From contig SMSO01000031.1 of NCBI GenBank assembly GCA_004764695.1, positions 1,783,048 through 1,847,047 on the forward strand: 64,000 nt of DNA, given 5' to 3'. How positions within the stretch are numbered: the stretch's first letter is position 1; each line of letters begins with the position of its first letter. The notes beneath the pieces are model-generated. The model ran no database searches, was not told the origin of the DNA, and worked only from the letters and a program-made list of their open reading frames with translations. Shown here piece after piece: positions 23,875 to 63,616 of the stretch. The DNA is from Schizochytrium sp. TIO01 (lineage: Eukaryota > Sar > Bigyra > Thraustochytrida > Thraustochytriidae). A program made the translations under genes and the position numbers.

Positions 23875-24262
23875 TATTGTTCTTGTTCTTTTTTGCTTCT
23901 GTACTAAATCAAAGCAGTACCCTCGCTATGCATAGCAACAAGAGTTCGTTTTGAATTTGTAGCGCATTGGTTTACGTATTGCCCACAATTGCACATTCCC
24001 CAGTTAGTCATCAAATGAAGCCTATCTTTAAATTGTCTCGCGGAAAAATACACACCCCCCAATTCACATGTAAACCAAGTCACTATTTCTTTCCAAATCA
24101 AAGCACTCAAGAAATCGCCGAACGCCAGAACTCCCTAAACTAAACCTGCGCTTTTCATCCATGAAGATTGAATTCATGTCCGAATGCCATTACATAGGCT
24201 TGAGCCAATTAATGAACTCAACAGGGTTCGACCTTGCAACTTCACATTGATTATAGAAATAC

Positions 24263-24286: not shown

Positions 24287-25426
24287 ATAGCAAGGTGCAT
24301 TCACCTTTGCAATGCCTGTGCTGAGTCCAGCTCTCGGCGGGACTCTCTCGGGACCCGAGCAAGATATACCGCCCACGAGGGGTCCTCCTGAGAGTCAGGA
24401 CTGCCTCAGTCAGGTTTGCAGCGTTTTGCAGTGTCTTGGGGCGGCTTGGTCACGACTGCGTCAAGACAGGTTGGCACACGGCCCATTCAAGGCATCCATT
24501 AACACGCTTTCATCTGCAGCTCCTGAAACAAGAGGTTTCCCGTAGCCCTTTAGGGCCCAATGAAGCTGCGATGGGCCCTGCAGGCATCTAGCCTCGACTT
24601 GCACGTACCTATGCAGCGAAGTCCTTGCGAGTCGTTGGTAATCGGCGCAACTAGCTCGCAAACTTGGTTTGCTCCCTGCTCAGTATTGTAATGCACGACC
24701 ACGCCCAAGTGAACTATAGCTGCCTTTCCCAGTAGGTTTTTAACTTCGCTGCAAATGGGTTATAATGATATGTTCCACTTATAGACGAGAAAGGTCTACT
24801 GTAAAGGCACCCAATAGCCCACTTGCGAAGACGGTCTTCCGCCCCGTCACTGTCAAGGACTTTCACATTACCCCCCGCGCAAGGTTGGCACAAGACTACG
24901 TGTCATTCTACAAGAGGCCAGAACATCTCTTGGGTATAACAAGGCGAATAAAGGCGGAGATCATAAGAATTCTTTTGTCTTATATTAACGGTGCTATTTA
25001 GGTAGTTATTGTATTATAAACTAGCCCCTATTTTAAAATATGTAGAGTAGTTCATCGGGTATAATCATGTAATATATGGGGCATTATGTAAGTTACGTAG
25101 GTGTATTCATTGCATGAGACATGGGGCACAGAACGATTTAGAGACGAAGACAAGATTCGGGATCCGGGAGCGCAAGATTCAATCTTGTTTCCTGCCAGCG
25201 GTATTAGCGAGTGTGAAGCAGACATCCAAGATAAGCTTTAGCGCCCAAGGTCGAAGAAGATGCAGTCCACAGCCACGTGAGCGTCTTCTGAGGTATCAGC
25301 CCTTCCAGAGCGGCTCAGAAGGGCTGTGAAACGGAAGGCTTCGATGTTCATTCCTGAGAGGTTTCAATATTTTATGTCATGCATGATTTTTTTTGTTGCC
25401 TTTTTGTTTTTAATAATTTTATTTAT

Positions 25427-26059
<633 letters not shown>

Positions 26060-26815
26060 GATAAAAAGAATAAAAGAAAGAAGTATAATTATAAAACTGA
26101 GAGGTGTTTTTCCGAGTCTTTTTTTGATTCTTTTGTTGCTTTTCTCTACGAATGGAGCATTTTTCAACCTACTACATTTGTAGTTGTAGGTACCTACACT
26201 TCGCCGACGACCGTGGCAGGAAACCAACATGAGCATGGCGGCCTTCGCAGTTTGCAGCCGACGATGCTGTAGCATGGAGCCGAATAAGTCGCCTTCTTCG
26301 CGGGGTTTACAGTTGAATGTTTGTTCTAAGTCGAAGCGACATTGTTCAGGTGAGTTGTGTTTCTGTTGGAGATATGTTGGCGCTCCACTTTTGGCACCAT
26401 TGTCCTTCAAGGTTCTGACACACCACAGGAAAACATTTACGGAAGAGGGTCACCTTTTGTGGCCTGAGAATTGCAGGCGTGCCATAAGAAACGCACGCGC
26501 TTTTGACTTGAGCTGATGCACAAGTAAAATGGTTTAAAGGAGTGATTAGTGAGAGCATCATGGCAGTGCAGCAGTGGAAGAAGGTACTGGGTACTACCTG
26601 GTTCTGCTGGGACCCGTCCCCAGAGTCATTGCACGACTAAGTAAGTACATAAGAGGATGTAGACCTGGGTTCCACACCTTGAGAAAGCGTATGCGATTAT
26701 AGGAACACACGCGCAACCCGCAGAAGGCTACCTTAATCACAACATTAACAGTAAACAACAAATTACATCAAAAATCGTGTTGATTATGCTTTGCAATCTC
26801 TATTTTTTTTTTTTT

Positions 26816-29800
26816 TTAATTAGCTGTGATTTCAATGATTGACACATCGTCGGGCTCAGAGTCATCGGAGTCAAGATCTTGCATGTCAAACTCCTCGTTC
26901 TCAGCATCAGAATCCTCCATACTGCTGCTATCGTGCGAGCCATGATCGGAGTCTGCTTGGCGCTCTTCCTCTGCATTCTCGTCTTCTTCAGTGATAGCGC
27001 TGCTCTTACCGGTGATATAGCGAAGGTACCTCTGACTCTGACAAGCCTGCAACATTGCATTTGAACCGAAAAGATCTGTTTGGCCATTGCTATCCCGATC
27101 TGCTTCTGACCTTTCACTCGCCATACGCCAGGACAGCATACGCTCTTCCAAAGTACCTCTAGCAAAATAACAAATTGTCTCTACAGGTCGTGTTTGCCCA
27201 ATGCGGTGCACACGATTGATAGCCTGTTGTTCCTCTCCAAGCTTAAGAAATGGTTCAAAGAGGATCACCCGAGTAGCTTCCGTCAAAGTCAAGCCAGCTG
27301 CTGCACTTGAGCTCTGCAGGAGTAAGATGCGAACATGATCCTGCGTCTTGAAAGAATCCACGGCAGCACGAAGTGCTGGAATACGATCGCCTTTTACAAT
27401 GCGAGCATGTATAATCTGATTCTGATCAAGAATTTTAGAAAGGTGAATCACTGTGTTCCGTTGTTGTGAGAATATCACTGTCTTACCTTCTTGGGTCGCA
27501 AATGACTGAAGATCGACTAGAAGTCGACTAATTTTAGATCCATAGATACCAGCGAAATCGTGCGAAGCAGGGGCGTTGGGCTGGAGACCTGTGACGGCTC
27601 TAAGAACCTTCACAAAGTTTGCATTAAGAGCTTCTGTGAGCACCCGGGTCAAACCTTCATCTGAGAGACCAAGTGCAGCTTGTGCTAGAGCTTGGTTAGA
27701 TTCATTCTCAGAGACATATTGTACCCATTGAGCTGCTGTCGCAATCCCCACAGACTCGACAACTTCCCCTTGTGGGGGTCTAGTAATATTCTCGTTTTGC
27801 CCATCAGTAACAGCCTCATCTGTTTCCCTAGCTTGCACACCATTCCTCCTCATATGACGCGTGACCTTTCGAGTTGCCGTTGATTTCGCAGATTGACTAG
27901 TGGATTGTGCTTTCTCTAAATCGTCCTCGCCCTTGTTCTTGTTCTCAATCACTCCTCTCGGTTTCAATACTCGGAAAATCTCAGGACGAGTGAGCTGGCG
28001 CCGGCACAAGGGACAAGCAAATCGATACGGTGCAAAATGGGATGAATTGACTGCGATGTGCTGGGAAATACAGGTTTCGCAAAACAGGTGGATACAGAGA
28101 GTGCATGTTGGAGAAGTGAGCTCTTCCAGGCAGATCCCACACTCAGGCGTGTTCGTTTGGTCAATGAGTTCCTGTAAAGCGCGCAAACCCTGACTCTCTA
28201 AAGCATCTACACGTTTTGCGCCTCGCTTCAGCGCAGCCTTCAGAGTATTTGCGTATGTTCGAAGATCTCGAGCAAGAGCTGATTTTCCATCTACTACTTC
28301 TTTCAGCTCGGAGATCCGATCCTTCTTTCCCTGAATTGATTCATGGACATTTTTGGACACAGGCGTATGAACAATGTTGCTATGATCGGCATCTGGCAGA
28401 TCAAGGATTGCAATATCGAATTCCTCAGGTAACCCATTATCAAGGCGCAGAACAGTAACTTTTTGCTCTTCATAATTCACAGAAAGTACATCGTTTGCAA
28501 GAATATTTATGCTGGAGGCTGGAGTAAACTTTAAACGAGCAAACTCCACAAGTCCTCCGTCCCCATCAAGGAGCTTCACAGACTCCTTGCTAGAAGATGA
28601 TCCCTTCACACGTTTCCGGGCGTTGGCTGCCAAATCTGTGAAAGGACCCGAAGCACTGGCCTGTTTTGCAGATTCTTCTTCCACCACCAAAGCTCGCTTC
28701 TTTGATGAGTTGGATCTTCTTTCTGTAGTAGCAGATACTTGGATCAAAGTTGCTTCTCCAGACTCAAAGTGGATTTCGCCCCAGGGCACCATACGCACCG
28801 TTCCATCTTCTAGTTTAAGCTGGGATGCATGCAAGTCGTCAAAGTCAGAAATGATCTTCACTACTCGTAGCTGAAAATGACGGTTTGACCTTCGGTATGG
28901 CGAGCAGTCATAAACCCTTGCAAATATTGTGACATCTGGCTTGCTCAACAGTGACCAATCCGGCTTCTGCTCGTTCTCGCCTTCCAAAGAGTTGCCTGCC
29001 GATGAGCCGAGAGTTGAGGTCTCTTTCAGGCCAAAACGAATAGAAAATGATGGGTAATCCAAATCACTTGATTTGGTGCATCCATAATGTGCAAACGTAG
29101 CTACTAAGGCCTTGCGTTCGTCCTCATTCTTAATTCCAATATGACTACACAGTTTTTCAAGTGATCTGGGGACCTCCGAACTGCAGTACCATTGGCGAAT
29201 GCGATCCCGCAAAAGCTTACTTGAAAGCAGCCGATCTTTCAAGCAAAGTTCAAGAACATGCCTGTGTACAACCTTCATGAGACGATCAAGACGTCGCTCA
29301 GCAAGTGTGTCATCCCGTTCTGATGTATGGCCCACATCATCACTCATGAGCTTCTGTAGCTCCGCACGGTCTAATGTATGAATGCGGAGCAAAGGAGTTG
29401 ATGCAAGGTCTGCTTCAGCTGCTGCAATGCGTTCTATGGATGTTCGGTTCACCTTGCTTTCTCGGCAAAGTTCCAGCAATGTGATCGCTACTGTAGATTT
29501 TCCCAGTGGCGTTGGGGAATCTGCATTCGTCATTTCAATATCGTCCCGCTCTTCAGAGGACGATGAGGTCATACTAGACTCGCTGGCTGGGAGCGTCGGA
29601 GACATACACCGTACGTCTTGTGTTGACAGCAGCCTGACTTCACCGTCAAGAAAGCGTACCTTTACAGTACTGGAAAGTTCATCAACCTCAAGAAGATCTT
29701 GCACAGGAACAAACACACGCTTTCCGTCGCCATTATAGCGTGCTTCAAAGTCAACAGTAGCAAGTTTGAGCGCGAGAGGTAATACCGGTAATTCCAAACT

Positions 29801-32800
29801 TATACCTGGGCTGCATTTCGTTTGGAAATCCTCCTCAAAAATACGTATGAGTAACTGAAGAGTCTGACACCAGAAATTAGAATTTGCGATTTGATCTATA
29901 ATCTGCTTCCGCAAGCGAACTGGATCATCACTCAGCATTATTGGAGAATCTTGATTATTGAAACATAGTTTCAAGTCTTCTTGCTCTCGCCCTCGGTGAG
30001 CTTCAACTAAGGATGTGTTCTGTCTAAGGACCACTTCAAAGCTGAAGTTTGACGTCAATGATGCCAACTGAGAGCACAACATACGCGTAGGCATCCGCTC
30101 ATAATCTTTAATAACGGTCTCGAGGTGACTGCGAGCTTTCTCTAGCTTCATTGTACAACTAACAATACGTACTGCTTTTTGTGCCTGAATAGTGAAGGTT
30201 TGGGTCTCGGTTTTCATCAACCGTAAAACTTCACGCCTAAGAATTGGATCAATTTTACTTCGCAGCAAAAGCAAAGCAAGGTATTTGCCGCTCGTAATTG
30301 CTTGAATGGCCCAACGCCAGCGAAGCTTGGGAATACTGCCTCCTCGAGCGGAGCAAAAGCCCTCTTTGCAACCGGATTCAGCTGCTTTGAGTTTTTCTTC
30401 AGTCTCCTTCAGACGCTCTGCAATGTGCTCTCTCATAGCGCCCGCAGATGCGCCAGCTCCGCTGGCGGCAGTCACTGCATACTGTTGTCTGCTTTGGGTG
30501 CTGACCATCCCACTACTTTGCTTCGTACCAGTAGCATCTCCAGAAAGTAAAAAATCACGCAGGTCATCGCCAGGAAGCTCAGAAAATTGAGAAAATAGCA
30601 CAGTAAACTGATTTGGGTGTACTATACCTCGTCGATGAAAAGATGTGAGAATTTCTCGAACACAGTTGTTCATGCGACAGATCATCGGGGCTGCCCCATT
30701 TCCGCCATTAATAAGGTATGGTGATGATGCAAGGAGACGAAGCAGTTCAATAGCCACAAACCAAGGGCGATTAGCAGCATGGTTAAATCCTCGATGGCTA
30801 CGGCGGTTCTGCTGGTGTGGGGTATACATATCAAGCGCTTTGACAGCCAGTGCCTCAAGATACTGATACAGGGCTCTTTCGCGATATTCCATCGGGATAC
30901 CTACGTACCGGGTTGTCGCAGTAGGCAAGTGTAAGATTGTGCGTTGGCTATCTGTTACGTAAGTTTGGTTTTTAGAATGCCGCATCATCACGTGCTCAAG
31001 AAGCAAACCTAGTCGTTCAAGTGCTATGGGGAGTTTCAATTCAAAAGGTCTTTTGACACGCTTGCTCCAAAATCCATCGGCATTGTCCGGACATGAAAAC
31101 GGAATAATACCAAGAAAGTTGAGCTCTCCATGAATATCATCAATTCCCGTGTAGATCGGTGTACCAGAAATCATCCAGCGAGAGCGAGCTGAAAGATCCC
31201 TACACATTCGCGCAAGGGATGTTGTGGAACTCCTAATCTCTTGCATTTCATCCAAACAAATACGCCGCCAGTGTATACGTTGTATAGATAAGGCAACATT
31301 CTGGATATTTCGGTAGGTGGTGAGCACAATGTCGCACTTGGCTATCTGTTCAGTAGCTTCATCGATAGCCTTGGAATATCTGAATTTGACTCTCTCAAAC
31401 AAGATCTTATCTCGGGGGTTTCCAATCTCTAAAGATTGCCCACCATCTGGATTGGGCAAATTTTCAACTGAACGATTGTCTGCATTGCTTGACTCGCTTT
31501 CCGAGCTACCCTGTGTAGTCTGCTGATGGTGAGCTTGCAACTCAGATTCAGTCAGACAGCATGCGAGTTTTCTCAAAGTAGCGAAGTAATGACCGTGGTC
31601 ATTAACAGTATCAAGCGTGGCTATGCAAAGCTTTGTGGGGTCATTGAGGCATTTTTCGAACTCATGAGCCCATTGCGGCAGTAAAGCGTCTGGTACCACG
31701 AAAAGAGTGGCATTTGATGCAATAACATCTTCTTCAATCTCGAATTCGGGCTCTGAAACATTTTGGTCATGAAGGACGAGTGAAATAAACTCAAGAGTTT
31801 TACCGAGACCCATCTCTTCGCATACAAGACCTCCGCGAACTAAGGGAGGGGCTTTGAGGCGTACCTCACCCAAAGCAGGTGAAATGTAGAAGCTCCCTGC
31901 CCCAGGGTCAGCAGTCCATTGACGCTCCTCCCAAAAGCAACCATTTAGCCCCCGAGGAAGGCGTTCTTGATCAATCATCCACTGTAGAGTCTGCAACTGG
32001 TAGTCTCTCATCTTAAGCTTCAACCCTTTAGGGTTTCCCGGGTACTCCTTGTAACCTAAGCTTTCATGCGAGCGAAGAAGGGCATCAGTGTTAAACTGGT
32101 TATCCTGAAGATGCAGTTCTTGGGGGACACTACGGTTGAACACAGCGTCTACCTTAGGAAGACTTGATAGAGGACCAGAGATCGGAGATGAAGCTACCAA
32201 GTACTTGATAAGTGTCCTCAGCGAGCGATTGGCAATCATCCAGAATATGAGGCGACTGACATACAAATGGATACGGACGCGTAAGCACTTGGAAGCGACC
32301 TCTTCAGTCTGCGATACACAACGTACTAAGGGCGCTTTCCACGGTGAGGTGGTCGGGTGCTGATACGTGAAGACAGCATCTATCCATTCAAAAAGCTCCT
32401 CAGGAGTGGCGGATGGAGAGTTACAATGGGAGAGGGATACTTTCCCTCCATCAATTGCTTTTCGCAGTAACTCCACTGATACTGGTGTATCCACACTCGC
32501 AGGTTCACCTGAATTGCTCTTCCACAAAATTTGCTTGTATGACAGAGGTTGCTTGGAAGACTTTCGCGGGGGAGGGGTGTACTGAAGAATCCTTTTCTTG
32601 AAATCCGATGCGCTACTAAACGTGATGTCCATATCAACATAGCCAATTCGGCGAAATGTATCAAACCCCTGAACAATGTCCTTGTCAAAATGTGTCTCGT
32701 TGACACGTGTAATTTTTCGCATCACGTCATTACATTGTTTTATAAACTTTGCTGCATCATTTGAGCATTGAGAATCACTCCACCACGCCGGTGGCTCTAC

Positions 32801-33463
32801 AGCCTTGCCAGTTAGAAATGAGATACTGTCTGGCACGGGCGAGCCAAATTTCTCGTATAAGTTGCGATGGAGTATCTTAATATACTCGCTTGAGGGGAGT
32901 CTGGTGCCTGAGGACGGATTTTCATCATCATCCTGGTTTATCTCTTGACTCGCTTCCAATTTTTCTTGAACGATGATTTCTTTGTTCTTAGCTCTATCTT
33001 TGTTTTTGGGAGGTTCGGTCTTACCAAATTCTTCTGCTTTCGGTGGTCTAGTCCTTCTTGTAGACCTTCTCAAAACTGTGCCTTCTTGCGGTCCTGTATC
33101 CGTACCATTTGCGACGCTTGAAGGTACGTTCGGCGAGGTAGAGGAGGTTGCTGTACGATTCTCACGTGTTGATCGTATCGCCCGCGTCGAGACACCTGCG
33201 CATGACTTGGACCTTGTACGTGAAGCTGTTACCATCGCGCCAGCAGTATTTGCAGAACTTCTTGAAGATGCCGACGAAGGTTTAGTAGACCCTTTGCCTT
33301 GAGTTTGTCTCACTGCCTGGGACTCTATTGTCAGGTCTGTGTCTGAGGCAAGTCCCGGTGCTATTGCAGGGGTCGTGTTCACAGCTGTCTCCGAGATATC
33401 TTCCAAGGTATCTTCGAGTTCTCTTTGCTCCCTGAGCCTTGCGGATTTGCGGCGAGAACTCAT
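26816..33463 (-). CDS. SHPRH/Rad5-like SNF2 ATPase with RING E3 ubiquitin ligase domain
   Basis: An intronless gene for 2,215 residues; the first ATG in frame (33461-33463) gives MSSRRKSARLREQ. Longer readings would need a TTG start. Residues 551-556 are MGLGKT (SNF2 motif I) in GGLVCEEMGLGKT. Motif II reads LDEMQ where SHPRH has DEAQ, and RWMISGTPI is motif III. A long insertion splits the two helicase lobes. In it a C3HC4 RING (Cys1775 to about 1820, CGICLEEL and ACPLCRRQ) precedes the second lobe, which ends with INRVHRIGQTRPVET near 2087. This order (SNF2_N, insertion, RING, helicase C) is that of SHPRH, HLTF and Rad5, which polyubiquitinate PCNA at stalled forks. SHPRH fits best by motif II and insertion size, though I see no PHD or H15 domain. 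The C-terminus is very acidic and ends near VSIIEITAN. Confidence 0.9.
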   Translation of the reverse strand: MSSRRKSARLREQRELEDTLEDISETAVNTTPAIAPGLASDTDLTIESQAVRQTQGKGSTKPSSASSRSSANTAGAMVTASRTRSKSCAGVSTRAIRSTRENRTATSSTSPNVPSSVANGTDTGPQEGTVLRRSTRRTRPPKAEEFGKTEPPKNKDRAKNKEIIVQEKLEASQEINQDDDENPSSGTRLPSSEYIKILHRNLYEKFGSPVPDSISFLTGKAVEPPAWWSDSQCSNDAAKFIKQCNDVMRKITRVNETHFDKDIVQGFDTFRRIGYVDMDITFSSASDFKKRILQYTPPPRKSSKQPLSYKQILWKSNSGEPASVDTPVSVELLRKAIDGGKVSLSHCNSPSATPEELFEWIDAVFTYQHPTTSPWKAPLVRCVSQTEEVASKCLRVRIHLYVSRLIFWMIANRSLRTLIKYLVASSPISGPLSSLPKVDAVFNRSVPQELHLQDNQFNTDALLRSHESLGYKEYPGNPKGLKLKMRDYQLQTLQWMIDQERLPRGLNGCFWEERQWTADPGAGSFYISPALGEVRLKAPPLVRGGLVCEEMGLGKTLEFISLVLHDQNVSEPEFEIEEDVIASNATLFVVPDALLPQWAHEFEKCLNDPTKLCIATLDTVNDHGHYFATLRKLACCLTESELQAHHQQTTQGSSESESSNADNRSVENLPNPDGGQSLEIGNPRDKILFERVKFRYSKAIDEATEQIAKCDIVLTTYRNIQNVALSIQRIHWRRICLDEMQEIRSSTTSLARMCRDLSARSRWMISGTPIYTGIDDIHGELNFLGIIPFSCPDNADGFWSKRVKRPFELKLPIALERLGLLLEHVMMRHSKNQTYVTDSQRTILHLPTATTRYVGIPMEYRERALYQYLEALAVKALDMYTPHQQNRRSHRGFNHAANRPWFVAIELLRLLASSPYLINGGNGAAPMICRMNNCVREILTSFHRRGIVHPNQFTVLFSQFSELPGDDLRDFLLSGDATGTKQSSGMVSTQSRQQYAVTAASGAGASAGAMREHIAERLKETEEKLKAAESGCKEGFCSARGGSIPKLRWRWAIQAITSGKYLALLLLRSKIDPILRREVLRLMKTETQTFTIQAQKAVRIVSCTMKLEKARSHLETVIKDYERMPTRMLCSQLASLTSNFSFEVVLRQNTSLVEAHRGREQEDLKLCFNNQDSPIMLSDDPVRLRKQIIDQIANSNFWCQTLQLLIRIFEEDFQTKCSPGISLELPVLPLALKLATVDFEARYNGDGKRVFVPVQDLLEVDELSSTVKVRFLDGEVRLLSTQDVRCMSPTLPASESSMTSSSSEERDDIEMTNADSPTPLGKSTVAITLLELCRESKVNRTSIERIAAAEADLASTPLLRIHTLDRAELQKLMSDDVGHTSERDDTLAERRLDRLMKVVHRHVLELCLKDRLLSSKLLRDRIRQWYCSSEVPRSLEKLCSHIGIKNEDERKALVATFAHYGCTKSSDLDYPSFSIRFGLKETSTLGSSAGNSLEGENEQKPDWSLLSKPDVTIFARVYDCSPYRRSNRHFQLRVVKIISDFDDLHASQLKLEDGTVRMVPWGEIHFESGEATLIQVSATTERRSNSSKKRALVVEEESAKQASASGPFTDLAANARKRVKGSSSSKESVKLLDGDGGLVEFARLKFTPASSINILANDVLSVNYEEQKVTVLRLDNGLPEEFDIAILDLPDADHSNIVHTPVSKNVHESIQGKKDRISELKEVVDGKSALARDLRTYANTLKAALKRGAKRVDALESQGLRALQELIDQTNTPECGICLEELTSPTCTLCIHLFCETCISQHIAVNSSHFAPYRFACPLCRRQLTRPEIFRVLKPRGVIENKNKGEDDLEKAQSTSQSAKSTATRKVTRHMRRNGVQARETDEAVTDGQNENITRPPQGEVVESVGIATAAQWVQYVSENESNQALAQAALGLSDEGLTRVLTEALNANFVKVLRAVTGLQPNAPASHDFAGIYGSKISRLLVDLQSFATQEGKTVIFSQQRNTVIHLSKILDQNQIIHARIVKGDRIPALRAAVDSFKTQDHVRILLLQSSSAAAGLTLTEATRVILFEPFLKLGEEQQAINRVHRIGQTRPVETICYFARGTLEERMLSWRMASERSEADRDSNGQTDLFGSNAMLQACQSQRYLRYITGKSSAITEEDENAEEERQADSDHGSHDSSSMEDSDAENEEFDMQDLDSDDSEPDDVSIIEITAN

Positions 33464-41612: not shown

Positions 41613-42281
41613 ATGACGATCAAGCTCACCTACTTCAACATCCAGGGTGTCGCGGAGAAGATCCGCCTCGCCTTCACCCTCAATGGCGTTGAGTTCGAGG
41701 ACCACCGCGTGAACCACGAAGAGTGGACTGCCATCAAGCCGCAGTCCAAGTTCGGCCAGCTGCCTTTGATGCAGATCGACGATGGCCCCGTGCTCGCCCA
41801 GAGTGATGCCCTCCTCCGCCTTGCCGGTACCATGGGCGCTGGCAAGCTCGTGCCTTCTGACCCCATGGAGCAGTTCAAGGTCAACGAGGCCATCAACCTC
41901 ATCGATGACCTTGCTCGCTCCTGGGTGCCTGCTCACAGCCTCGGCATGGCTCCGGAGAAGTTTGGCTACACCAAGGAATTCATTCAGTCCGAGGAGGGCA
42001 AGGCCAAGATCAAGGAGCTCCGCGAGAAGTGGTTTGAGACCGAGCTGCCCAAGTACGCCAAGCTCATCGAGGACCTCATCAAGGCCAACGGCGGCGTCTT
42101 TCTCGCTTCCACTGAGGGCCCCACTATTGCTGATTGCTACGCTGTGCCCTACCTTAACCAGTTCCAGCGTGGCTTCATTGACCACATTCCCGCTACTAGC
42201 CTCGACCAGTTCTCCGAGCTCACTGCCTACATCAAGCGCTTCTACGAGATCCCGGAAGTCGCCAAGTACTACAGCAAGTAA
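41613..42281 (+). CDS. Glutathione S-transferase, sigma-like, copy 1
   Basis: A complete 222-residue frame. It conjugates glutathione to electrophiles or reduces peroxides. The N-terminal thioredoxin-like domain begins KLTYFNIQGVAEKIRLAF with catalytic Tyr7. Trp38, Gln49-Leu50-Pro51 and Gln63-Ser64-Asp65 (QSDALLR) are the glutathione-site residues. The all-helical C-terminal domain has the N-capping box PTIADCYAVPYLN. The LTYF-RG-AE start and the EWxxIK turn place it near sigma-class enzymes. It is the first of four copies in the same direction and the most C/G-ending in codon use, which suggests the highest expression. It ends KYYSK. An antisense frame of 242 codons is a by-product of that bias. 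Confidence 0.97.
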   Translation: MTIKLTYFNIQGVAEKIRLAFTLNGVEFEDHRVNHEEWTAIKPQSKFGQLPLMQIDDGPVLAQSDALLRLAGTMGAGKLVPSDPMEQFKVNEAINLIDDLARSWVPAHSLGMAPEKFGYTKEFIQSEEGKAKIKELREKWFETELPKYAKLIEDLIKANGGVFLASTEGPTIADCYAVPYLNQFQRGFIDHIPATSLDQFSELTAYIKRFYEIPEVAKYYSK

Positions 42282-43216
42282 TCTAGCCATCCCTCGATGA
42301 CCTTTGTTCGGTCCGGTAAATGCTGCCTGCAGCAGCTCAGGACATTTAGTGCGATCAAAGATCTAGCATATGAGAACTAATCATGTCAAAAGTTTTGTTC
42401 AACTAGTAACATCATCATTTTTTGCTCCTGCAAAGATTTCATCCTTTTTCTTGCAACACGATGTTGTGTTACACTTCTTTAGATTTTCAATGAGCCATCC
42501 AAAGATCGTGGGAAGGAGACTTCTGCTTTTCGCGGAGCACTCTGACATGATCTATCAATTCCAGAGTGGTTCACAAAATGAGCTTCACTTCTTCTTTTTT
42601 TTAATTAAAACTTTAATTATAAAAATGAAAGGAAAAGGGGAAAAGAATTGACTATGTTATATTTTAAAGACGAGTCCAGGAGCTTATTCCGAGCCGAAGT
42701 TGTACGGCATTAACCCCGTTCTTTCACTACGGCCTGGCTGAATACACCAATCCTGCTGCTTCTACTGCATCCTGCCCATAACCCGACGTGCCGTTAGTTT
42801 GTTCAATCTTCACATAAGTGTGGTTAGGTGTCTAGCTAGCTGCTACTACTGCTTACAAAAAGTGAAAAAAGGAAAAGAAATAGAAATGAAAAGAGTTCGT
42901 CGTCATCACTCGTGTGAGATAATTACTAGGTATGCTTTTGCAGAATGCTTGCGCCAGACCTTCGCGACCTAATCATATGGTCATGCGTTCTCTGGTGACT
43001 CACATTTGTGGAAGCGGTTCGCACAGTAGATGCGTCTACAATGTTGGGCATTCTAGCACGAAAGAGTAGTATTCTCGAAAGAGTGATAAAGCCTAGTATA
43101 GTAGTAAGTAGTAGAAAATTGCAAACTTGAATGATTGACAGCAAAACCAAAAGATAGCAGAACCCGAACACCACCAGCTGAAGACATAGCAGCAGAGCAT
43201 AAAGGATACGACAACG
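42282..43216. other. Spacer between GST copies 1 and 2
   Basis: 935 bases without a gene; AT-rich at about 42590-42670. No remains of a further GST could be seen. Confidence 0.5.
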
Positions 43217-43891
43217 ATGGGTGTCGAGCTTACATACTTTGATATTCATGGGGTGGCGGAGAAAATCCGTCTAGCGTTGGTGTTAAACCATGTCGAGTTT
43301 GAGGACGTTCGTGTGGGTATGGGAGAGGAATGGGAAGAACTTAAGCCCAAGACCAAGTATGGCCAATTGCCGTTCTTAAAAATTGACAATGGCCCAGAGC
43401 TGCCCCAAAGTGACGCCATTTTGCGATTGGTTGGTACAATGGGAAAAAACGCCCTCTACCCGCAGGATCCTGCTGAACAGTTCAAGGTAAACGAAGCCAT
43501 CAACGTCATCGACGATATGGCCCGTGCTTTTCATCCAGCGTATTACTTTCAATGGACGCCGGAAGCATTTGGCTATGCGAAGGACTTCCCTGAGTCTGAA
43601 GAGGGCATTGCTAAATTTAAAGAGTTGCGTGAAACCTTTCTGGCAGATGTTTTGCCGACACATTTGAAGAATGTCGCGATGCTTCTCAAGGCAAACGGGA
43701 ACAAGTTTATTGCGTCAAGTGCTGGCCCTACAATCGCGGATTGCCATACCGTGGCATTCTTAAACCAATTTCAGCTTGGCCAACACGAGCATTTCCCTAA
43801 AGGTTGCCTCAGTATCTCACCAGAAGTTGCAGAGTATATTGAGCGCTTCTTGGCGATTCCTGAGGTTGCAGAGTGGTACAAGACCCATTAG
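43217..43891 (+). CDS. Glutathione S-transferase, sigma-like, copy 2
   Basis: 224 residues, starting MGVELTYFDIHGVAEKIRLA with Tyr7; the glutathione-site box is Gln64-Ser65-Asp66 (QSDAILR), shifted by one residue relative to the other copies because of an extra residue in the loop before EEWEELK. GQLPFLKIDNG and PTIADCHTVAFLN are conserved. It groups best with copy 1 (shared NHVEFED/NGVEFED, EQFKVNEAIN and FGYAKDF/FGYTKEF) but is the only one that does not end YSK (it ends YKTH). Codon use is much less biased than in copy 1, so it is probably expressed less. Confidence 0.96.
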   Translation: MGVELTYFDIHGVAEKIRLALVLNHVEFEDVRVGMGEEWEELKPKTKYGQLPFLKIDNGPELPQSDAILRLVGTMGKNALYPQDPAEQFKVNEAINVIDDMARAFHPAYYFQWTPEAFGYAKDFPESEEGIAKFKELRETFLADVLPTHLKNVAMLLKANGNKFIASSAGPTIADCHTVAFLNQFQLGQHEHFPKGCLSISPEVAEYIERFLAIPEVAEWYKTH

Positions 43892-46504
43892 TCAGACCCT
43901 TTCAATAACTCTGTTGATTTATGCAAAATATAAATAGATTTTAAAAAGTTGTCTGATACTATCCTTGCACGGACCGACGAGTAATGGAACTTCAATTGTA
44001 TCCTACTTGGTACATGTCTTCGTCATTGTGGCAAAGGGTTAAAGTCACTCAGCTGATGAAGCAACTTCCCGTTTATGCTGCCAATATCTAGAGGACTCGA
44101 GGCTAGAACTCTTCCGTCAGTTATAAAACTCCCTAAATAAATACATAAATAAAGATGGACATTTTTTCTATAGTTATTCTTTCGACAATGGGCAATCTAC
44201 TATAAGAGGATACTTTGGGCATCAAGATGTCATCAGTGCAAGCTCTAGATCACGAAAGTAGTTTATGTCAACGTCAACATAGTAGAAAAGATTGACAACT
44301 GATCTTTAAAAAAAAGAAAAGAAAAAAAAAGCCAACAAAATGAGCTTTGAAGAGAAGTAGAAACTATGCTATCAAGCTTCGTTCTTTGCACCCTATTCAA
44401 CCCTGTCGCTAGGATTTCTAGTCAAACGCTACCTAAACATTGGTTGATACTGCACATCAAGAGAGCGTATTTTGGAGAAAGGTACCAGTACATGTTCGTT
44501 ATTGTGATGTGACGTTTTCAAAAATTGGGCAACGAGCGAAGTATAGTTGGACTATCTTTGGCAAATCATTGAGCGAGAAGGACAGGCAATTTAACTACAA
44601 ACCTTTGGGGCCAGCCTGATGCTGAAAAGCGGTTCGATAGCGAGTACATCTACAAGGGTAACAGAGCACGCACAGGTAAAAGCACAGAACTAACTCAAGG
44701 GCTAGTAGGTCCACCTTTAGGTACTCGTGTGAATTCCGCTGGTGTAATTACTAAGATCATAGCTTGGTTATCTAAACATGAAATTATAATTAAGCTACGT
44801 TGTATATGCTGACAACTGGTTGGCGGAGTTAAATACGAGGGCCATCCGCCTCTTCTTTGTTCATCAAAATTCCTTGATCAATTAGTTTCTCGAATCTTGC
44901 CAGCTGGCATTCGGACGTTCTTGGTTTTTCAGAAGTACTTGGTTCTTAACTTATGACGACATCACTATCGTTTCAAAATCTCGAAAGTGTGACTATCGGG
45001 ACATCTTCCATGGTTCTCCCTCGTAGTTTCTGCAATTTATGAAACTACTTCACTCACTTCAAGTTCTCTTCGGGGCTGCTTGCGAGTGGCACCGGGAGTC
45101 CTGTAGAAAGTGTCCTGCCTCATTGCCCGCGTCTGCAGCGATATGGCTCGAGCCGTTGCCATGTCTGTTACTGCACGGCCTTTGTTTCAGGATCTTCCGC
45201 ACAGAGAGCACAACTTGGGGCTTTCCCAGGTGCTCGAAGAGGAATTTCAGGTCATGATGAAGTGCCCCGAAGACTATTACTAGCCCCACTCTCATAGTCA
45301 GAGGTAACAAGTTAAAATCCTTTGCTTGGGTAAAAACTCAAGCCAAAACAATCACTTCCTTAGCCCTGAAATTCAAGTTCTTTGTACTTGTCGCTCTTAG
45401 AAGAACCCTTTTCTATTCATTCATCCAAAGATAAGTGGTTTTCGTGATTTGGCGAAGAACCGGATCATAGCACACTATTATGGGTAGGTACCATACGTTC
45501 GAACACTGCAGTTTACCCGACCAATGTTTCAAGAACTTCAAAGGCCTTTGAAATCTATCAGAGAACCGCTTCAAACCCGTGAGGCCTTGGAGCTGATGAG
45601 TGAGCAGACAATAAGTCCACTATTGTCGATGCTTAATCATGCTGAGGAAGCAATCCTTATCCCAAAGCACCAACGTTTTCAGTGGCTGGTATACTAGGTA
45701 GTACCTACACCCTTCTCTTAGGAATTGGTCCACTGGTACTAACAGAGGACTAGGCTACTGCTTGTAGGCACTTGCGCACAAAAGCACTTGGAGATTCCAA
45801 AATGGTTAAAAAAAAAGTGCTATCTGGCTCAACCTTCAGAATTAATTGCAGCTCAGGTGCAGACATGGAGTGGCGTTGAGTGTTGAGCGATAAAAGGCCC
45901 ACCTGCGAGAGAACAGTGAACTGCAAGTTGCTAGTCCGTGACGCGAAACCAACTCAGTTAGTTCTGCCAGGGATTCTTTGATCTGGGAACTTCAGCTGAA
46001 AGGAGCTTCTTCTACCTGTCTACCAACTACCGTGACCGTGTAATGCAATCATTAGGCCAAAAGTGAAACGACACTGTCTAATACGCATCGCCATCATAAT
46101 TGTAGACCCGAAGTGCCGAAGACGCACGCTTTCACAACCGGGGCTGCAATAACTTGCTACGATACTAGGGCATCAGCTGTGACGCGTGTTGAATGATTCC
46201 ACGGGAAAGGAACAATATTCGTTCTCTGTACAACTTTGGAAGTTCAACGTAGTACCATCTCCAACTTCGAGTGGCTAGAGTGTAAAGACTTGTAGATTAC
46301 CTCGGAAGTTGGCGTTGAGATTTGCCGAGCAAAGATACAAGTGCAAGGCTACCTATAATTTGCGAGCATTTAATTAGCACCGGGAGGCCAAGCACGATGG
46401 AGACCTGATGCAGAACCTGAACTCAACCGACAGCACAGCAGACCAAAGCAAGAGGAGAAAGCGCTAGTTTTTGTGAACACAGCGAAAGACTAAACTTCGA
46501 GAAA
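43892..46504. other. Spacer between GST copies 2 and 3
   Basis: 2.6 kb with no gene supported. I looked for remains of a GST in the conserved blocks and saw none. GGTACC words lie at 44481 and 45487. Confidence 0.5.
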
Positions 46505-47173
46505 ATGACTGTCAAACTTTCTTACTTTGATGTCACTGGCTTGGGCGAGCGTATTCGTCTTGCCTGTATCCTCAATGGAGTTGACTTTGAGGATAACCGC
46601 GTGCAGCGCGAAGACTGGGTCAAGATGAAGGATAGTACAAAGTATGGCCAAATGCCGCTGCTCGAACTTGAAGATGGTACCACGATTGCGCAAAGCGATG
46701 CCATCCTTCGCTACGTTGGCAGCCTTGGGTCTGGCAAGCTTTACCCACAGGATCCACGCGCCCAGGCCAAGGTGAATGAGGCTCTTGGTGTCAGTACGGA
46801 CTTGTTCCATTCGGTCATGCCCAAGTTCCGCATCGCAATGGAACCAACGAAGTATGGCCACAGTGAAGATTTCGCTGAGACTGAGGAGGGCAAGGCCAAA
46901 TTGCAGGCTGTCAAAGAGAACTGGGTGGCTGAGGAATTGCCCAAATTTGCAAAGTTCTTTACCAACCTTTTGAAAGAGAATGGCGGTGAATACCTGGCCT
47001 CCACAGATTATCCGACCATCGCTGATTGTAGTGCAGTTTCTTTCTTGAACGAGTTTGGCAAAGGGTTCGTTCAATTTGTTCCGGCTGACTGGATTGAGGA
47101 ATACCCGGAGCTGAAGGCCTACATCGACCGCTTTATGGCCCTTCCGGAGGTCGCCGAGTGGTACAGCAAGTAA
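46505..47173 (+). CDS. Glutathione S-transferase, sigma-like, copy 3
   Basis: 222 residues, beginning MTVKLSYFDVTGLGERIRLA with Tyr7. GQMPLLELEDG and Gln63-Ser64-Asp65 (IAQSDAILRYVG) form the glutathione site, and PTIADCSAVSFLNEFGKG is the C-domain N-cap box. It ends WYSK. It pairs with copy 4, sharing QMPLLEL-DG, IAQSDAILRY, PQD, AKVNEALGV and LFRS/LFHS. It carries Cys21, which the other copies lack at that place. Codon bias is moderate. Confidence 0.97.
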   Translation: MTVKLSYFDVTGLGERIRLACILNGVDFEDNRVQREDWVKMKDSTKYGQMPLLELEDGTTIAQSDAILRYVGSLGSGKLYPQDPRAQAKVNEALGVSTDLFHSVMPKFRIAMEPTKYGHSEDFAETEEGKAKLQAVKENWVAEELPKFAKFFTNLLKENGGEYLASTDYPTIADCSAVSFLNEFGKGFVQFVPADWIEEYPELKAYIDRFMALPEVAEWYSK

Positions 47174-49172
47174 AATTATGTTCCTACAATTAAACTAATA
47201 AGGAAAAATATCATAAGTTCTAGATTTTGTTTTTTTATGCAGGTATGCCAGATGATAGGTGACAATTGCAGAGTGTAGTCGATTCATTCGGAGAAATCAT
47301 TGATTAAAATGAATTTGGACGAACTAGGGGTGGGGATTTAAGTATCTGAACTGAAACTCGCGATTTTGGAATACATACGTTCAACAAACAGATGTAAATC
47401 ACAATTTTGACTATCACCTTTGGAGTTGTTGAAGTGCCAGCAGATCACCAGCTTTAAGGCTTCAACTCAGAGCCTTTAAATTCTAGTTTGCGTTCCAAAG
47501 TCTAATCTCATTCTTCTTAGTCAATCCCAACCTCATACTTGGGCAATCCCTGACCTTCCGCTTTGAGTATGTAAGATTGTGAACCAATTTAAACACATAA
47601 ACCTATGGTTGGTGAACGTGAGGTAGATTTGCGATTTTCAGCAGCTTAGCTTGCAGAGTAAAGGTTGATAATTATGTTAAAGAAGGACTTGATCTAATGT
47701 CGAAAGGGCTGAAGAAGTGTGTTGTACTTCTTGAATAAGAAGAGATTCTTGAACCCATGATAACTTTGTTCAAGGCCTCTTCTTGAAGGAGAGGTGGAAG
47801 CAGTATATTTACATGACTTTTAAATATAAAAGAAGTTAAATATGTACTTGTTTGATTAAGACATTCAGCCATTCAGCTCAGAGAATGTTGTGGTTTCCAT
47901 CCTCGCAATGATTTATAGCTTCATTTGATGACGCTGTAGACTCTACCCTTTGCCATGATTTATAGCTTCATTTGACATTGCTGTAAAGTTTATCATCAAC
48001 AAAATCTTACCTGTATTCGAGCGGTTTCTAAATTTAAATTGATTGATCAATTGAACGCAACTTCAATTCATAAGCACGCACTAAATATGAGATCTCGTCA
48101 TCTCACGTATTTATAATATATATGTATAACACTAGGTGGTTCATAGAAGACAGAGAAAACGTATGTTAAACTCACCATCTCCCTCAATGTTACTGACTAA
48201 AGACGGACCTTTGTAGACGCTACCACACATCCCAAGGTTCTTCCACGTCATATTGCAATACCTTCGGCTGAACTTGGAAAAAACCCTAAAGCCACTGAGC
48301 TGGTAGGTTGAGCGAGGAAAGATTTTTGCGGCGAAATTATGCCTTTCTCAACTATAGTGTACAAGCAGGTACGTGAGAAATTACCCGCTTCCTTTCATAG
48401 CAAGATGTACAGCGTAGCTTCTCAATGAATCACATTGAGCTTATTAGCGAAGGAAGCCCTACTGGAGGTGCTGAGTTTTGATCAAATTAGCCGGCCACTC
48501 TGCTATCTTTAAATGCCACACTGATGAACGAATCTATGCTAATTCCAAGTTGCCACCATAAAGCTGAGCATCGTAGCAACCGGCATCTTTGTTCGGAGTT
48601 TCTAAAAACTAGAAACGTGGAGAAGAGTGTCTCATTCATGAAAAAAAAAAAATTACTTATGATAAATCCCGGCCCACCTTATATGTGGGTCCTAGACTTT
48701 ACACTAGAAGCCCACCTCGTTGCTCACAGGTACTAGTGGTCCAGAGGCATAATGGGAAGCAAGTAGTATCCTCCATTTTGGTGTGCAAGAAATGCTCGGC
48801 ATCTCCATATTGCATGCGCGAGAGGAAGGCGTTCGTATCTTCATCCACCAGTTCGCTAGGTATCTCCCTTGTGCGGAACATTGTTGAAGGATTTTATGAT
48901 TACCGGCCCCCGTACTTTCTATTGGTAGATAGGTACTGGGAGAATTTCTGATGTCTGAAGTTCATCATGAACATTGCACCTGGAGACATCAGCGTCGCGC
49001 ATTTCCTTTTGAACTTCAGCTCAAAAATAAGCAGGGCTCGGGCTTCCAATGTCAAGTTTGCCCGAGATGCTGATGATGTGGAGAAGTGATTGAAGCAAAG
49101 CCACAGCAAAACCGTAATCTCGATTTGCTTCTGGACCAGAACAAGAGTAGAGAGTTTTAGCAATCAGTAAAG
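47174..49172. other. Spacer between GST copies 3 and 4
   Basis: 2.0 kb without a supported gene. Includes a 33-bp direct repeat (47908-47987), a 9-A run near 48642 and a small hairpin (CCCAC-GTGGG) near 48675. Confidence 0.5.
47908..47987. repeat. Direct repeat, two copies of about 33 bp
   Basis: Copies 47908-47940 and 47955-47987 share ATGATTTATAGCTTCATTTG and then GA-G/T-CTGTA with a few differences; the spacing of 47 bases from start to start shows a recent local duplication. Confidence 0.8.
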
Positions 49173-49841
49173 ATGACAGTCAAGTTGACCTACTTCAACA
49201 TGCGCGGTGCTGCCGAGAAGATCCGGCTCGCGTTCATTCTTAATGGTGTAGAGTTTGAAGATGACCGTGTAGAGTTTGCAGACTGGCCCAAGCTCAAGGG
49301 CAGCACCAAATTTGGTCAAATGCCTCTCTTGGAGTTGGATGATGGCACTGTGATCGCCCAAAGTGATGCGATTCTGCGATACGCCGGCTCTGTTGGCGAG
49401 GGCAAGTTGGTTCCGCAGGATCTCAAAGAGCAAGCCAAGGTGAACGAGGCTCTTGGTGTCCTGGAGGACTTGTTTCGCTCTGCACTGGGTAGGTTTTTCC
49501 TTGCTCGCGACCCTACCGCCTTTGGTCATGAGGACGAGGTCAAGGAGTCTGAAGAAGGTAAAGCAATGATCAAGAAGATGCATGACAAGTGGGTTAGCGA
49601 GGAGCTTCCCAAATTCATTGGCTTCATCGAAAAGCTCCTTGAGCAGAATGGAGGCGACTTCCTTGCTTCCAAGGACTTCCCGACAATCGCAGACTGCTTC
49701 GCAGTCTCCTTGTTGAACGAGATGGAAAATGGCTTTTTGAGCTTTGTACCGTCGGGCTACCTCGATAGCTCTCCCGCCGTAAAGGCATATGTGCAGCGTT
49801 TCATGGAGATCCCAGAGGTTGTTCAGTGGTACAGCAAGTAA
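49173..49841 (+). CDS. Glutathione S-transferase, sigma-like, copy 4
   Basis: 222 residues, beginning MTVKLTYFNMRGAAEKIRLA with Tyr7; this is the copy nearest to the sigma-class consensus (LTYFNMRG-AE-IR, ADWPKLK). GQMPLLELDDG and Gln63-Ser64-Asp65 make the glutathione site; PTIADCFAVSLLNEMENG is the C-domain cap. It ends WYSK and is the last gene of the array. Confidence 0.97.
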   Translation: MTVKLTYFNMRGAAEKIRLAFILNGVEFEDDRVEFADWPKLKGSTKFGQMPLLELDDGTVIAQSDAILRYAGSVGEGKLVPQDLKEQAKVNEALGVLEDLFRSALGRFFLARDPTAFGHEDEVKESEEGKAMIKKMHDKWVSEELPKFIGFIEKLLEQNGGDFLASKDFPTIADCFAVSLLNEMENGFLSFVPSGYLDSSPAVKAYVQRFMEIPEVVQWYSK

Positions 49842-61453: not shown

Positions 61454-63616
61454 ATGACGACTCATGGGTTTTATAAAGAGGTGGCTCCTGAGGATCTTGC
61501 ACGTGACATGAGCATTGGTCTCTCAGAACCTGTGTTGTGTCGAGATGGAGCGCAAATTCCGGGTCAGAGCATGCCCCCGGCGCACTCTGTACCTTCTGAT
61601 TTTGTTGATGTCATAGGCGCAGACAGGCTTGTCACAGTGCTTCAGAACACTGAGGAGCGCGAGATTATCCTGCCTTTCGGTGAGTGGGTGGCATATCTTG
61701 ATGACACAAATGCTCGCGCTGCATCAGAGCAGAAGGAGCTCAACATGGTTAGCTTTGATGTACGCCAAACAGCGCTTACAGACCTTGTGGAGCTCCCTGA
61801 TTTTTGGCGCGACCAGGACCTAATTCGTATGCTCAACGAAGACCTGCATGACAATGGCCCACATATGGGTTCGCATAATCCTCCAAATACTGCTTTGCTT
61901 GGCTACGACGGCGGGGCCGCACATTCTGCTGCAACGTGGCGGCTTGAGATTGCAGCAGAGACAAACTTTCAGAGTACAATTGGGTTTGCACAACGCCTCA
62001 GCCAACAGGACAATTCAAAGCCCAGGGAACCTACCGCGCCACAGCAAACCCCTTTATTTTGCACAATGTGTACGTCAGGCTGCTATTCCGATTTCTTCAT
62101 CCCGTACGGAGGCGCTGCAAGTTACTTTTATGTTGCTTCAGGCTCCATGTGGATTTACTTAGTCGAGCCGACACCCACAAACCTACAGAAGTATGAGCAG
62201 TGGGTAGCTACGGGCAATATGAAGTTTAAGTTCTTTGGCGATTTGGTCGAGCGCCACGAGAAGATGGAACTCGAAACCGGAGCCAGCGCATACATCCCTC
62301 CCGGTTGGATCATTGGTACATTCTGTCCAAATGATGCGATCGTTTTTGGCTCTAATATCCTTACGCCTAAAACTCTTCCTACCCACCTTGATACCTACGC
62401 CATGGAACGTCGTCTCGACGTACCATTGCGTTTTCGCTACCCTGGCTTTGAAGCGATCATGTTTCAGATCATCATGTGGCTTCGTGATCGAGTCAAATCG
62501 TCAAATCTCGCAGATGATCTTGAGACATCCCAACATCAAGCAGATGACTATATGTTTCTCTTGCGTTCGATCCTGCTCTGGGTCCGCGAATATGACTACA
62601 CATCTCAATACAGCCCACTCTGGCAGCTCGAGCAGGAACTGTACTTCTCACCTGAGTTGCGATCTGCCTTGCAGCAGCTAGACTCAAACTTACACTTTTC
62701 ACCTATGGGTCAGATTAATGACGAGTCTCGCGAGGCAATCTTCGTTCGGTCGTGGAAAAGCGCTGTTACTCGTGCAAACTCTACGAACAACGCTGGCAAT
62801 AATCATAACAATATCAGCAACAATCAAGGCGAATCTAATACTGCTGCCTCGCCGCTGGCTTTGCCACAACGGTCACCTCCCGAACCTTCGACGATTGATT
62901 TGGTGCGTGCCAAGGCAAGCCTTTTGAATGGTGATTATGAGTCTATCAAACATCTCATCCGTTCTAACTCCTCAGGCAATTACGCAAACAACCCTCAAGC
63001 GGCAGCTGCAGCAGCAGCGGCGGCGGCAGCAGCAGCAGCAGGAGGAGGAGCAGGATACTTTCCTACTTCACAGAACTCACAACACTCTGCGGTATCTCCC
63101 ACTATCCCCCCTGCTTACATTCTTCCCGCTGGAGCTGCCCCACGCCCTGATGACATGATTGCCATGGCTCAACAGGGTGGAGCTGCAGGTCTTCATCGTG
63201 TAAACGAACAGTTGCAATGTGATAAGTGTCTCGGCTATTTCAGCAAGAAGGGTCTTGGCCCACATCGGCGTTACTGCAAGGGTGAAATGAAGAAAGACTA
63301 TAGTCTTCATCGCCCGAAAATCAACATCGGTGCTGATGGAAGTGAATCTGTCAAGGTTCAGAGTGCCACTCATCGCTCTTCATGCCATCGTTGTGGCAAC
63401 CTCCGCAAAAAGGTGGTTTTGTGCCCGCGCTGCCCCAATATTTATTGCCGCAAGTGCAGTGAAAAGATGCGTGAGGAGCACGGTCCTGACGTCTTTGAGA
63501 CTGGGTGTCCTTTTTGTAAATCACTATGTTGTTGCCATGGCGAGCGCACTCGCAGCTGCCCTCGGAAGTACCACTGCTACAAGAAATGCCCCGTCTCATT
63601 GGCACCTGTTTCTTAA
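61454..63616 (+). CDS. KDM2/7-like JmjC protein lacking Fe(II) ligands, with C-terminal zinc fingers
   Basis: A single frame of 720 codons. Residues 50-130 match the segment before JmjC in KDM2 (VIGADRLVTVL, then MVSFDVRQTALTDLV). The JmjC core is clear: CYSDFFIPYGG (210-220), EPTPTNLQKYEQW, then YIPPGWIIGTF. Active KDM2/7 enzymes have TDFHxDFGG and GWIHAVY, so the ligands His, Asp and His are here Phe215, Pro217 and Ile287, and the 2-oxoglutarate Lys (GGK) is Met232. It should not demethylate by the normal mechanism. A flexible part with Asn-, Ala- (about 516-535) and Gly-rich runs leads to a C2HC finger (Cys589, Cys592, His604, Cys608). A RING-like/4CXXC finger (Cys644 to Cys713, CHRCG, VVLCPRC, YCRKC, GCPFC) follows, like those in plant KDM3-type JmjC proteins and CDCA7. 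Likely a chromatin-binding scaffold in the nucleus. Confidence 0.9.
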   Translation: MTTHGFYKEVAPEDLARDMSIGLSEPVLCRDGAQIPGQSMPPAHSVPSDFVDVIGADRLVTVLQNTEEREIILPFGEWVAYLDDTNARAASEQKELNMVSFDVRQTALTDLVELPDFWRDQDLIRMLNEDLHDNGPHMGSHNPPNTALLGYDGGAAHSAATWRLEIAAETNFQSTIGFAQRLSQQDNSKPREPTAPQQTPLFCTMCTSGCYSDFFIPYGGAASYFYVASGSMWIYLVEPTPTNLQKYEQWVATGNMKFKFFGDLVERHEKMELETGASAYIPPGWIIGTFCPNDAIVFGSNILTPKTLPTHLDTYAMERRLDVPLRFRYPGFEAIMFQIIMWLRDRVKSSNLADDLETSQHQADDYMFLLRSILLWVREYDYTSQYSPLWQLEQELYFSPELRSALQQLDSNLHFSPMGQINDESREAIFVRSWKSAVTRANSTNNAGNNHNNISNNQGESNTAASPLALPQRSPPEPSTIDLVRAKASLLNGDYESIKHLIRSNSSGNYANNPQAAAAAAAAAAAAAAGGGAGYFPTSQNSQHSAVSPTIPPAYILPAGAAPRPDDMIAMAQQGGAAGLHRVNEQLQCDKCLGYFSKKGLGPHRRYCKGEMKKDYSLHRPKINIGADGSESVKVQSATHRSSCHRCGNLRKKVVLCPRCPNIYCRKCSEKMREEHGPDVFETGCPFCKSLCCCHGERTRSCPRKYHCYKKCPVSLAPVS

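Follow-up and report, generated by a model that had tools for sequence, protein, structure and literature searches.

A thraustochytrid KDM2/7-like JmjC protein with its Fe(II) ligands and 2-oxoglutarate lysine replaced

Results

We found that a plus-strand gene at 61454-63616 of a 64,000-nucleotide stretch of the Schizochytrium sp. TIO01 genome (contig SMSO01000031.1, forward-strand positions 1,783,048 to 1,847,047; hereafter the window) encodes a KDM2/7-like JmjC protein in which all of the Fe(II) ligands and the lysine that binds 2-oxoglutarate (2OG) are replaced. Sequence comparison, a predicted model and structural alignment support a fold of the KDM2/7 type whose Fe(II) site is abolished. 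We favor the view that this is a pseudo-demethylase, in which the fold formed by JmjC and the Jumonji helical domain (JHD) was kept and the site replaced, and which probably works as a chromatin adaptor.

Active-site positions

When PDB was searched with phmmer, the protein matched KDM2A (E 2.2e-33), PHF8 (E 1.8e-31) and PHF2 (E 2e-28), and its JmjC barrel could be aligned with those of KDM2A and PHF8. In the alignment with KDM2A, H212, D214 and H284 correspond to F215, P217 and I287, so that the Fe(II) triad of an active KDM2/7 demethylase (HxD/E...H) is missing, and K229, the 2OG-binding lysine, corresponds to M232. We counted residues at these positions across 121 rows, comprising KDM2A and the best 120 of 330 homologues found with KDM2A, PHF8 and PHF2 in the query; these are mostly vertebrate by name and are not orthologues. 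Column 212 holds H in 121/121 rows, so the loss at F215 is common to 0/120 homologues. Column 229 is nearly as uniform (K 120, Q 1), and column 214 holds D in 93 rows, E in 25 and a gap in 3. The third Fe(II) ligand, column 284, varies inside the family (H 88, N 27, Y 6), as in the GWIY of PHF2.

A sequence-only reading of this DNA had proposed a strong KDM2/7 fold match and had equated the active-site His, Asp, His and Lys with Phe215, Pro217, Ile287 and Met232. The first point is confirmed by the phmmer matches, a model that is confident over aa 201-320 and structural alignment, and the second by the KDM2A alignment and the 121-row columns. Its wider statement, that all Fe(II) and 2OG residues are replaced, is right for the Fe(II) ligands and for the lysine that binds 2OG but not for every 2OG residue. 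We take KDM2A N142, T209, Y222 and N298 to be further 2OG contacts, on which a literature search gave nothing usable. N142 and N298 are kept as N97 and N301, T209 is conservatively changed to Ser212 and Y222 is replaced by Phe225, with column N298 itself being variable (N 87, H 33, W 1). None of the eight aligned site positions holds a His, Asp or Glu. The Pfam JmjC profile (PF02373) did not report the gene at E values up to 10, and the gene is absent from the 18 places that this profile found in the genome. With a JmjC fold, substituted catalytic residues and an intact gene, the protein is of the pseudo-JmjC kind represented by JARID2 and Epe1.

Integrity of the gene

The reading frame runs unbroken from ATG to TAA over 720 codons, with a start context of ccgccATGa and the nearest upstream in-frame stop 21 codons before the ATG. 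At the local base composition, the probability of 720 codons being open by chance is 4e-18. Codon preference was scored against 12 neighboring frames that were assumed to be genes; it reached +0.20 bits/codon in frame, inside the 0.14-0.48 range of the training frames themselves, with the other five frames scoring -0.23 to -0.63. Across the genome (64.06 Mb, 37 contigs), the gene has a single match. The intact frame reported by the sequence-only reading is thereby corroborated. That reading had gone on to argue for a selected non-catalytic role as opposed to decay; because the frame is intact and the codon bias lies in frame, an old pseudogene is indeed disfavored, but the site loss does not clearly exceed general divergence (see Discussion).

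Domain layout and predicted structure

The features of the gene, with the evidence for each, are as follows (pLDDT, predicted local distance difference test).

61454..63616, plus strand: whole coding frame, 720 aa, uninterrupted (frame translation, codon preference, genome search)
61454..62047, plus strand: N-terminal KDM2/7-type half, aa 1-198 (weak first phmmer stretch of 12.7 bits; structural alignment from aa 4)
62048..62362, plus strand: pseudo-JmjC core, aa 199-303 (phmmer, column alignment, pLDDT, structural alignment)
62366..62689, plus strand: JHD-like helices, aa 305-412 (borderline Pfam JHD; model helices; structural alignment)
62705..63205, plus strand: low-confidence linker rich in Asn and Ala, about aa 418-584 (pLDDT mostly <50; composition by reading)
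63218..63277, plus strand: possible C2HC finger (CDKC...H...C), aa 589-608 (sequence reading; Pfam silent)
63383..63589, plus strand: Cys-rich module with two further Cys, aa 644-712 (Cys spacing like class III zf-4CXXC_R1; profiles silent)

The N-terminal half carries Asn97, the counterpart of KDM2A Asn142, and, at about aa 136-194, an insert modeled with low confidence; the core carries Ser212, Phe215, Pro217, Phe225, Met232, Ile287 and Asn301. Across aa 201-320 of the predicted model, the ten-residue mean pLDDT was 84-95; beyond aa 320, in the JHD-like helices, confidence was middling. The Pfam JHD profile (PF17811) gave a borderline match at aa 311-365, with 20 bits against a cut-off of 23.4 and 23.4 bits in a second search, and structural alignment to PHF2, KDM7 and PHF8 extended up to aa 412, placing a JHD after the JmjC core. 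Pfam reported no zf-CXXC, PHD, F-box or LRR in the protein, and a search of NCBIfam yielded a chance match only.

The C-terminal Cys-rich module

The cysteines of the tail are ordered CxxC-x9-CxxC-x4-CxxC-x16-CxxC-x3-CxC-x7-C. The motif given for CDCA7 is CXXCX10CX4CX7CXXCX19CXXCX3CXCXXC, and class III JmjC proteins are described as having deletions between Cys 4-5 and 6-7 of zf-4CXXC_R1 (eLife, PMC10538959). In the tail these two gaps are 4 and 16 residues. Cys 1-10 follow the class III order and the 11th is displaced; relative to CDCA7, the 3-4 gap is 2 instead of 4 and the gap to the 11th Cys is 7 instead of 2. A class III 4CXXC-like pattern, drawn after viewing the tail sequence, occurred in 1/200,000 tail shuffles. 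A search of the genome with PF10497 gave a sole match, at E 0.754 and elsewhere than the tail. Pfam found no RING or PHD in the tail, and its best PDB match, a ribosomal protein at E 0.03, is not credible. We regard the likeness to zf-4CXXC_R1 as an architectural resemblance in cysteine spacing, short of demonstrated membership.

A PHD-like Cys pattern also fits the tail. We rejected it as an invalid detector, as it occurred in 1655/200,000 shuffles and in 0/120 homologues, most of which bear a PHD according to Pfam.

Other JmjC genes and chromatin proteins in the genome

The PF02373 search found 18 places besides the pseudo-JmjC gene, 17 of them above the cut-off. When their frames were read, 16/18 had HxD/E and a distal His, among them L002 and L003, which retain HTE...H and are KDM4/5-like; L015 comprises the distal half only, and in L018 the ligands are lost. 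(The labels JMJD6-like and KDM4/5-like, like the gene names in the side observations below, were assigned by eye.) The pseudo-JmjC gene was the only match in a genome search for the JHD. A KDM2A core query returned this gene and L008 (E 0.036), which has an ordinary HxD...H; no further KDM2/7 homologue was detected at the sensitivity used, in a six-frame search that can miss exons.

L018 (L018/L029; G000:C34:3059934-3060236, minus strand) is KDM6-like (KDM6B, E 7.4e-07) and lies in a 2398-codon open frame. At its aligned ligand positions, R, G and F stand in place of H, E and H, with posterior marks of only ~0.8 at the first two. Judged from this alignment, L018 is a second, KDM6-like pseudo-JmjC protein. 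A zinc-finger-like CxxC...CxxC stretch follows its KDM6-like region. The search for a catalytic KDM6 was confined to the PF02373 genome scan.

SET-domain matches occur at 20 places in the genome (E <= 0.001). A role of the pseudo-JmjC protein in reading methylated DNA seems less likely, because both of the cytosine-C5 methylase (PF00145) matches found in the genome are DNMT2-like.

Other features of the window and genome

Elsewhere in the window, four similar frames of 222-224 aa, glutathione S-transferase-like, lie in a row at 41613-49841 (+), starting at 41613, 43217, 46505 and 49173. A 2215-aa frame at 26816-33463 (-) resembles an SNF2 helicase with a RING finger, of the SHPRH/RAD5 kind. 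At 22465-23907, a 480-aa plus-strand frame is antisense to a 466-aa UDP-glucose dehydrogenase-like frame and is probably a codon-bias shadow. A simple repeat at 25344-26272 (GC 0.33), which reads as poly-(LFIY) in more than one reading frame, is unlikely to be a gene. On another contig (G000:C4:611495-614707), ten tandem acyl-carrier (PF00550) matches, mostly 324-330 bases apart, lie in one open frame; we take such an array to be a mark of the thraustochytrid polyunsaturated fatty acid synthase, which makes a thraustochytrid host probable.

Discussion

Under the reading that we favor, an ancestral KDM2/7 JmjC-JHD enzyme would have retained its barrel and helical domain while largely hydrophobic residues took over the iron and 2OG positions (F and I for the two H, M for K, F for Y, and also P for D), their side chains filling the pocket. 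Fe(II) binding in the manner of the KDM2/7 family would thereby be lost, and on the residues present we consider the loss of Fe(II)/2OG catalysis very likely. The JmjC-JHD barrel may then offer a surface on which a histone tail or a partner protein docks, and the Cys-rich module at the C-terminus may bind the nucleosome, DNA or partners, with the protein localized to chromatin. A role as chromatin adaptor through both barrel and tail is less assured than the loss of catalysis, and we regard it as somewhat probable.

Several observations weigh against this reading. The whole-protein model has a mean pLDDT of 60 and a predicted template modeling score of 0.57 and leans on the KDM2/7 alignment; a single-sequence AlphaFold control reached a pLDDT of 37 and did not recover the fold, its order of strands and helices being similar by eye to that of the alignment-based model. 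No orthologue was found with the whole protein in a protein database (7993 most word-sharing candidates scored), with region 195-360 in the same database (212 candidates) or among the IMG/VR viral contigs, in searches that depend on shared short words. The Cys-rich tail matches no profile in Pfam, PF10497 included. A genome search for the HP1-type chromo-shadow domain was silent, as was its control, so that absence is not implied. The kept Asn97 and Asn301 and the conservative Ser212 may allow some small-molecule binding.

Divergence also has to be considered. We defined near-invariant columns as those mapped to KDM2A with >=95% agreement among the rows that have a residue (n = 62), a few of which are touched by the uncertain alignment of the aa 136-194 loop; 28/62 are retained and 34/62 changed. 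Gly/Pro columns are retained far more often than others (13/15 vs 15/47, p = 0.0003). The catalytic positions, of which 214 and 284 lie outside the 62 columns, are kept in 0/4 cases vs 21/35 near-invariant columns in the JmjC core (p = 0.037). Compared with 27/57 other near-invariant columns overall, the same 0/4 gives p = 0.12, and the eight site positions, with 2/8 kept, give p = 0.28 against all columns and 0.12 against the JmjC core. These comparisons also count against the reading, as the catalytic loss does not stand clearly apart from general divergence; the barrel is preserved and the chemistry is not, with the excess of site loss over overall divergence at best weakly indicated.

Alternatively, the Cys-rich tail may be the working part, acting for example in DNA binding or as a RING-like ubiquitin ligase, with the JmjC barrel merely holding the tail or its partners. 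The regular CxxC pairs are in keeping with this, as is the plant protein JMJ24 (JmjC with 4CXXC), which is described as using a RING to act on the methyltransferase CMT3 (PMC10538959). We consider it rather unlikely, given that the RING, PHD and PF10497 profiles are silent, that PDB holds no credible match and that the tail is modeled with low confidence. Somewhat more doubtful is a relaxed or recently abandoned gene, which would have lost its site and be drifting toward loss, its frame still open through recency. The 34 changed near-invariant columns, the site loss not clearly above general divergence and the lack of orthologues in the protein database and IMG/VR to support constraint would fit such a gene. 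Set against them are the open frame of 720 codons and its in-frame codon bias, the retained Gly/Pro columns and the confidently predicted JmjC core; moreover, drift that altered half of the near-invariant columns should have broken the frame too. A different working enzyme or sensor, with other ligands, a different metal or chemistry that needs no metal, and using Asn97, Asn301 and Ser212, could draw on the retention of these residues at presumed 2OG contacts, but is very improbable with Phe, Pro and Ile at the ligand positions, Met for Lys, and His, Asp and Glu absent from all eight site positions. An error of assembly or gene model masking a normal site, conceivable with a single assembly, can be practically dismissed, as four separated positions and their neighbors are changed within one uninterrupted frame that has one match in 64 Mb.

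If the pseudo-demethylase reading is correct, a KDM2/7 homologue devoid of iron ligands and 2OG lysine would represent a natural separation of the fold's binding role from its catalysis. Thraustochytrids are transformable, and non-demethylation roles of the KDM2/7 barrel would become testable in a protist. Taking the two pseudo-JmjC genes together, we tentatively raise the possibility that the KDM2/7 and KDM6 classes survive in this lineage only as non-catalytic chromatin proteins, the eraser fold being kept as a reader or scaffold with a hydrophobically filled pocket and the KDM2/7 member carrying its own Cys-rich module.

Comparison with known systems

Literature searches pairing JmjC with "pseudoenzyme" found nothing, and a search for thraustochytrid histone demethylases found nothing relevant. 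Like KDM2A and KDM7 (PHF8, KDM7A), the pseudo-JmjC protein has a JmjC barrel and a JHD with the same residue register. KDM2 has an N-terminal JmjC without a preceding PHD, and the layout here is KDM2-like, with an N-terminal JmjC and no PHD found before it by Pfam. Unlike KDM2A and KDM7, the protein has neither the Fe(II) ligands nor the 2OG lysine, and Pfam is silent for zf-CXXC, PHD, F-box and LRR. PHF2, whose PDB entries 3pu8 and 3pus are with Fe(II) and Ni(II) by their titles, retains H, D and K, whereas all four positions are lost here.

Fungal forms, including Neurospora DMM-1, are described as having an N-terminal JmjC (PMC10538959). Compared by description, DMM-1 and plant class III proteins such as IBM1, which combine JmjC with zf-4CXXC_R1, share with our protein a JmjC and a diverged Cys-rich module; they differ in that PF10497 is silent here and that two features of our tail, its 3-4 gap and the place of its 11th Cys, do not keep the CDCA7 register.

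The closest functional parallels may be Epe1 and JARID2, which we use as working models by analogy. Schizosaccharomyces pombe Epe1 is a JmjC protein with a natural iron-triad substitution (Y370) that is reported to oppose heterochromatin non-enzymatically, and mutations in its JmjC disturb binding to Swi6/HP1 (PMC7192584). In that description one natural substitution is named, whereas all ligands are lost here. JARID2 carries conserved catalytic substitutions in its JmjC and has an essential non-catalytic role; it is described as KDM5-related, with JmjN, ARID and C5HC2 domains, and not of the KDM2/7 type (PMC11241480). Both proteins illustrate that a demethylase fold can function without its chemistry.
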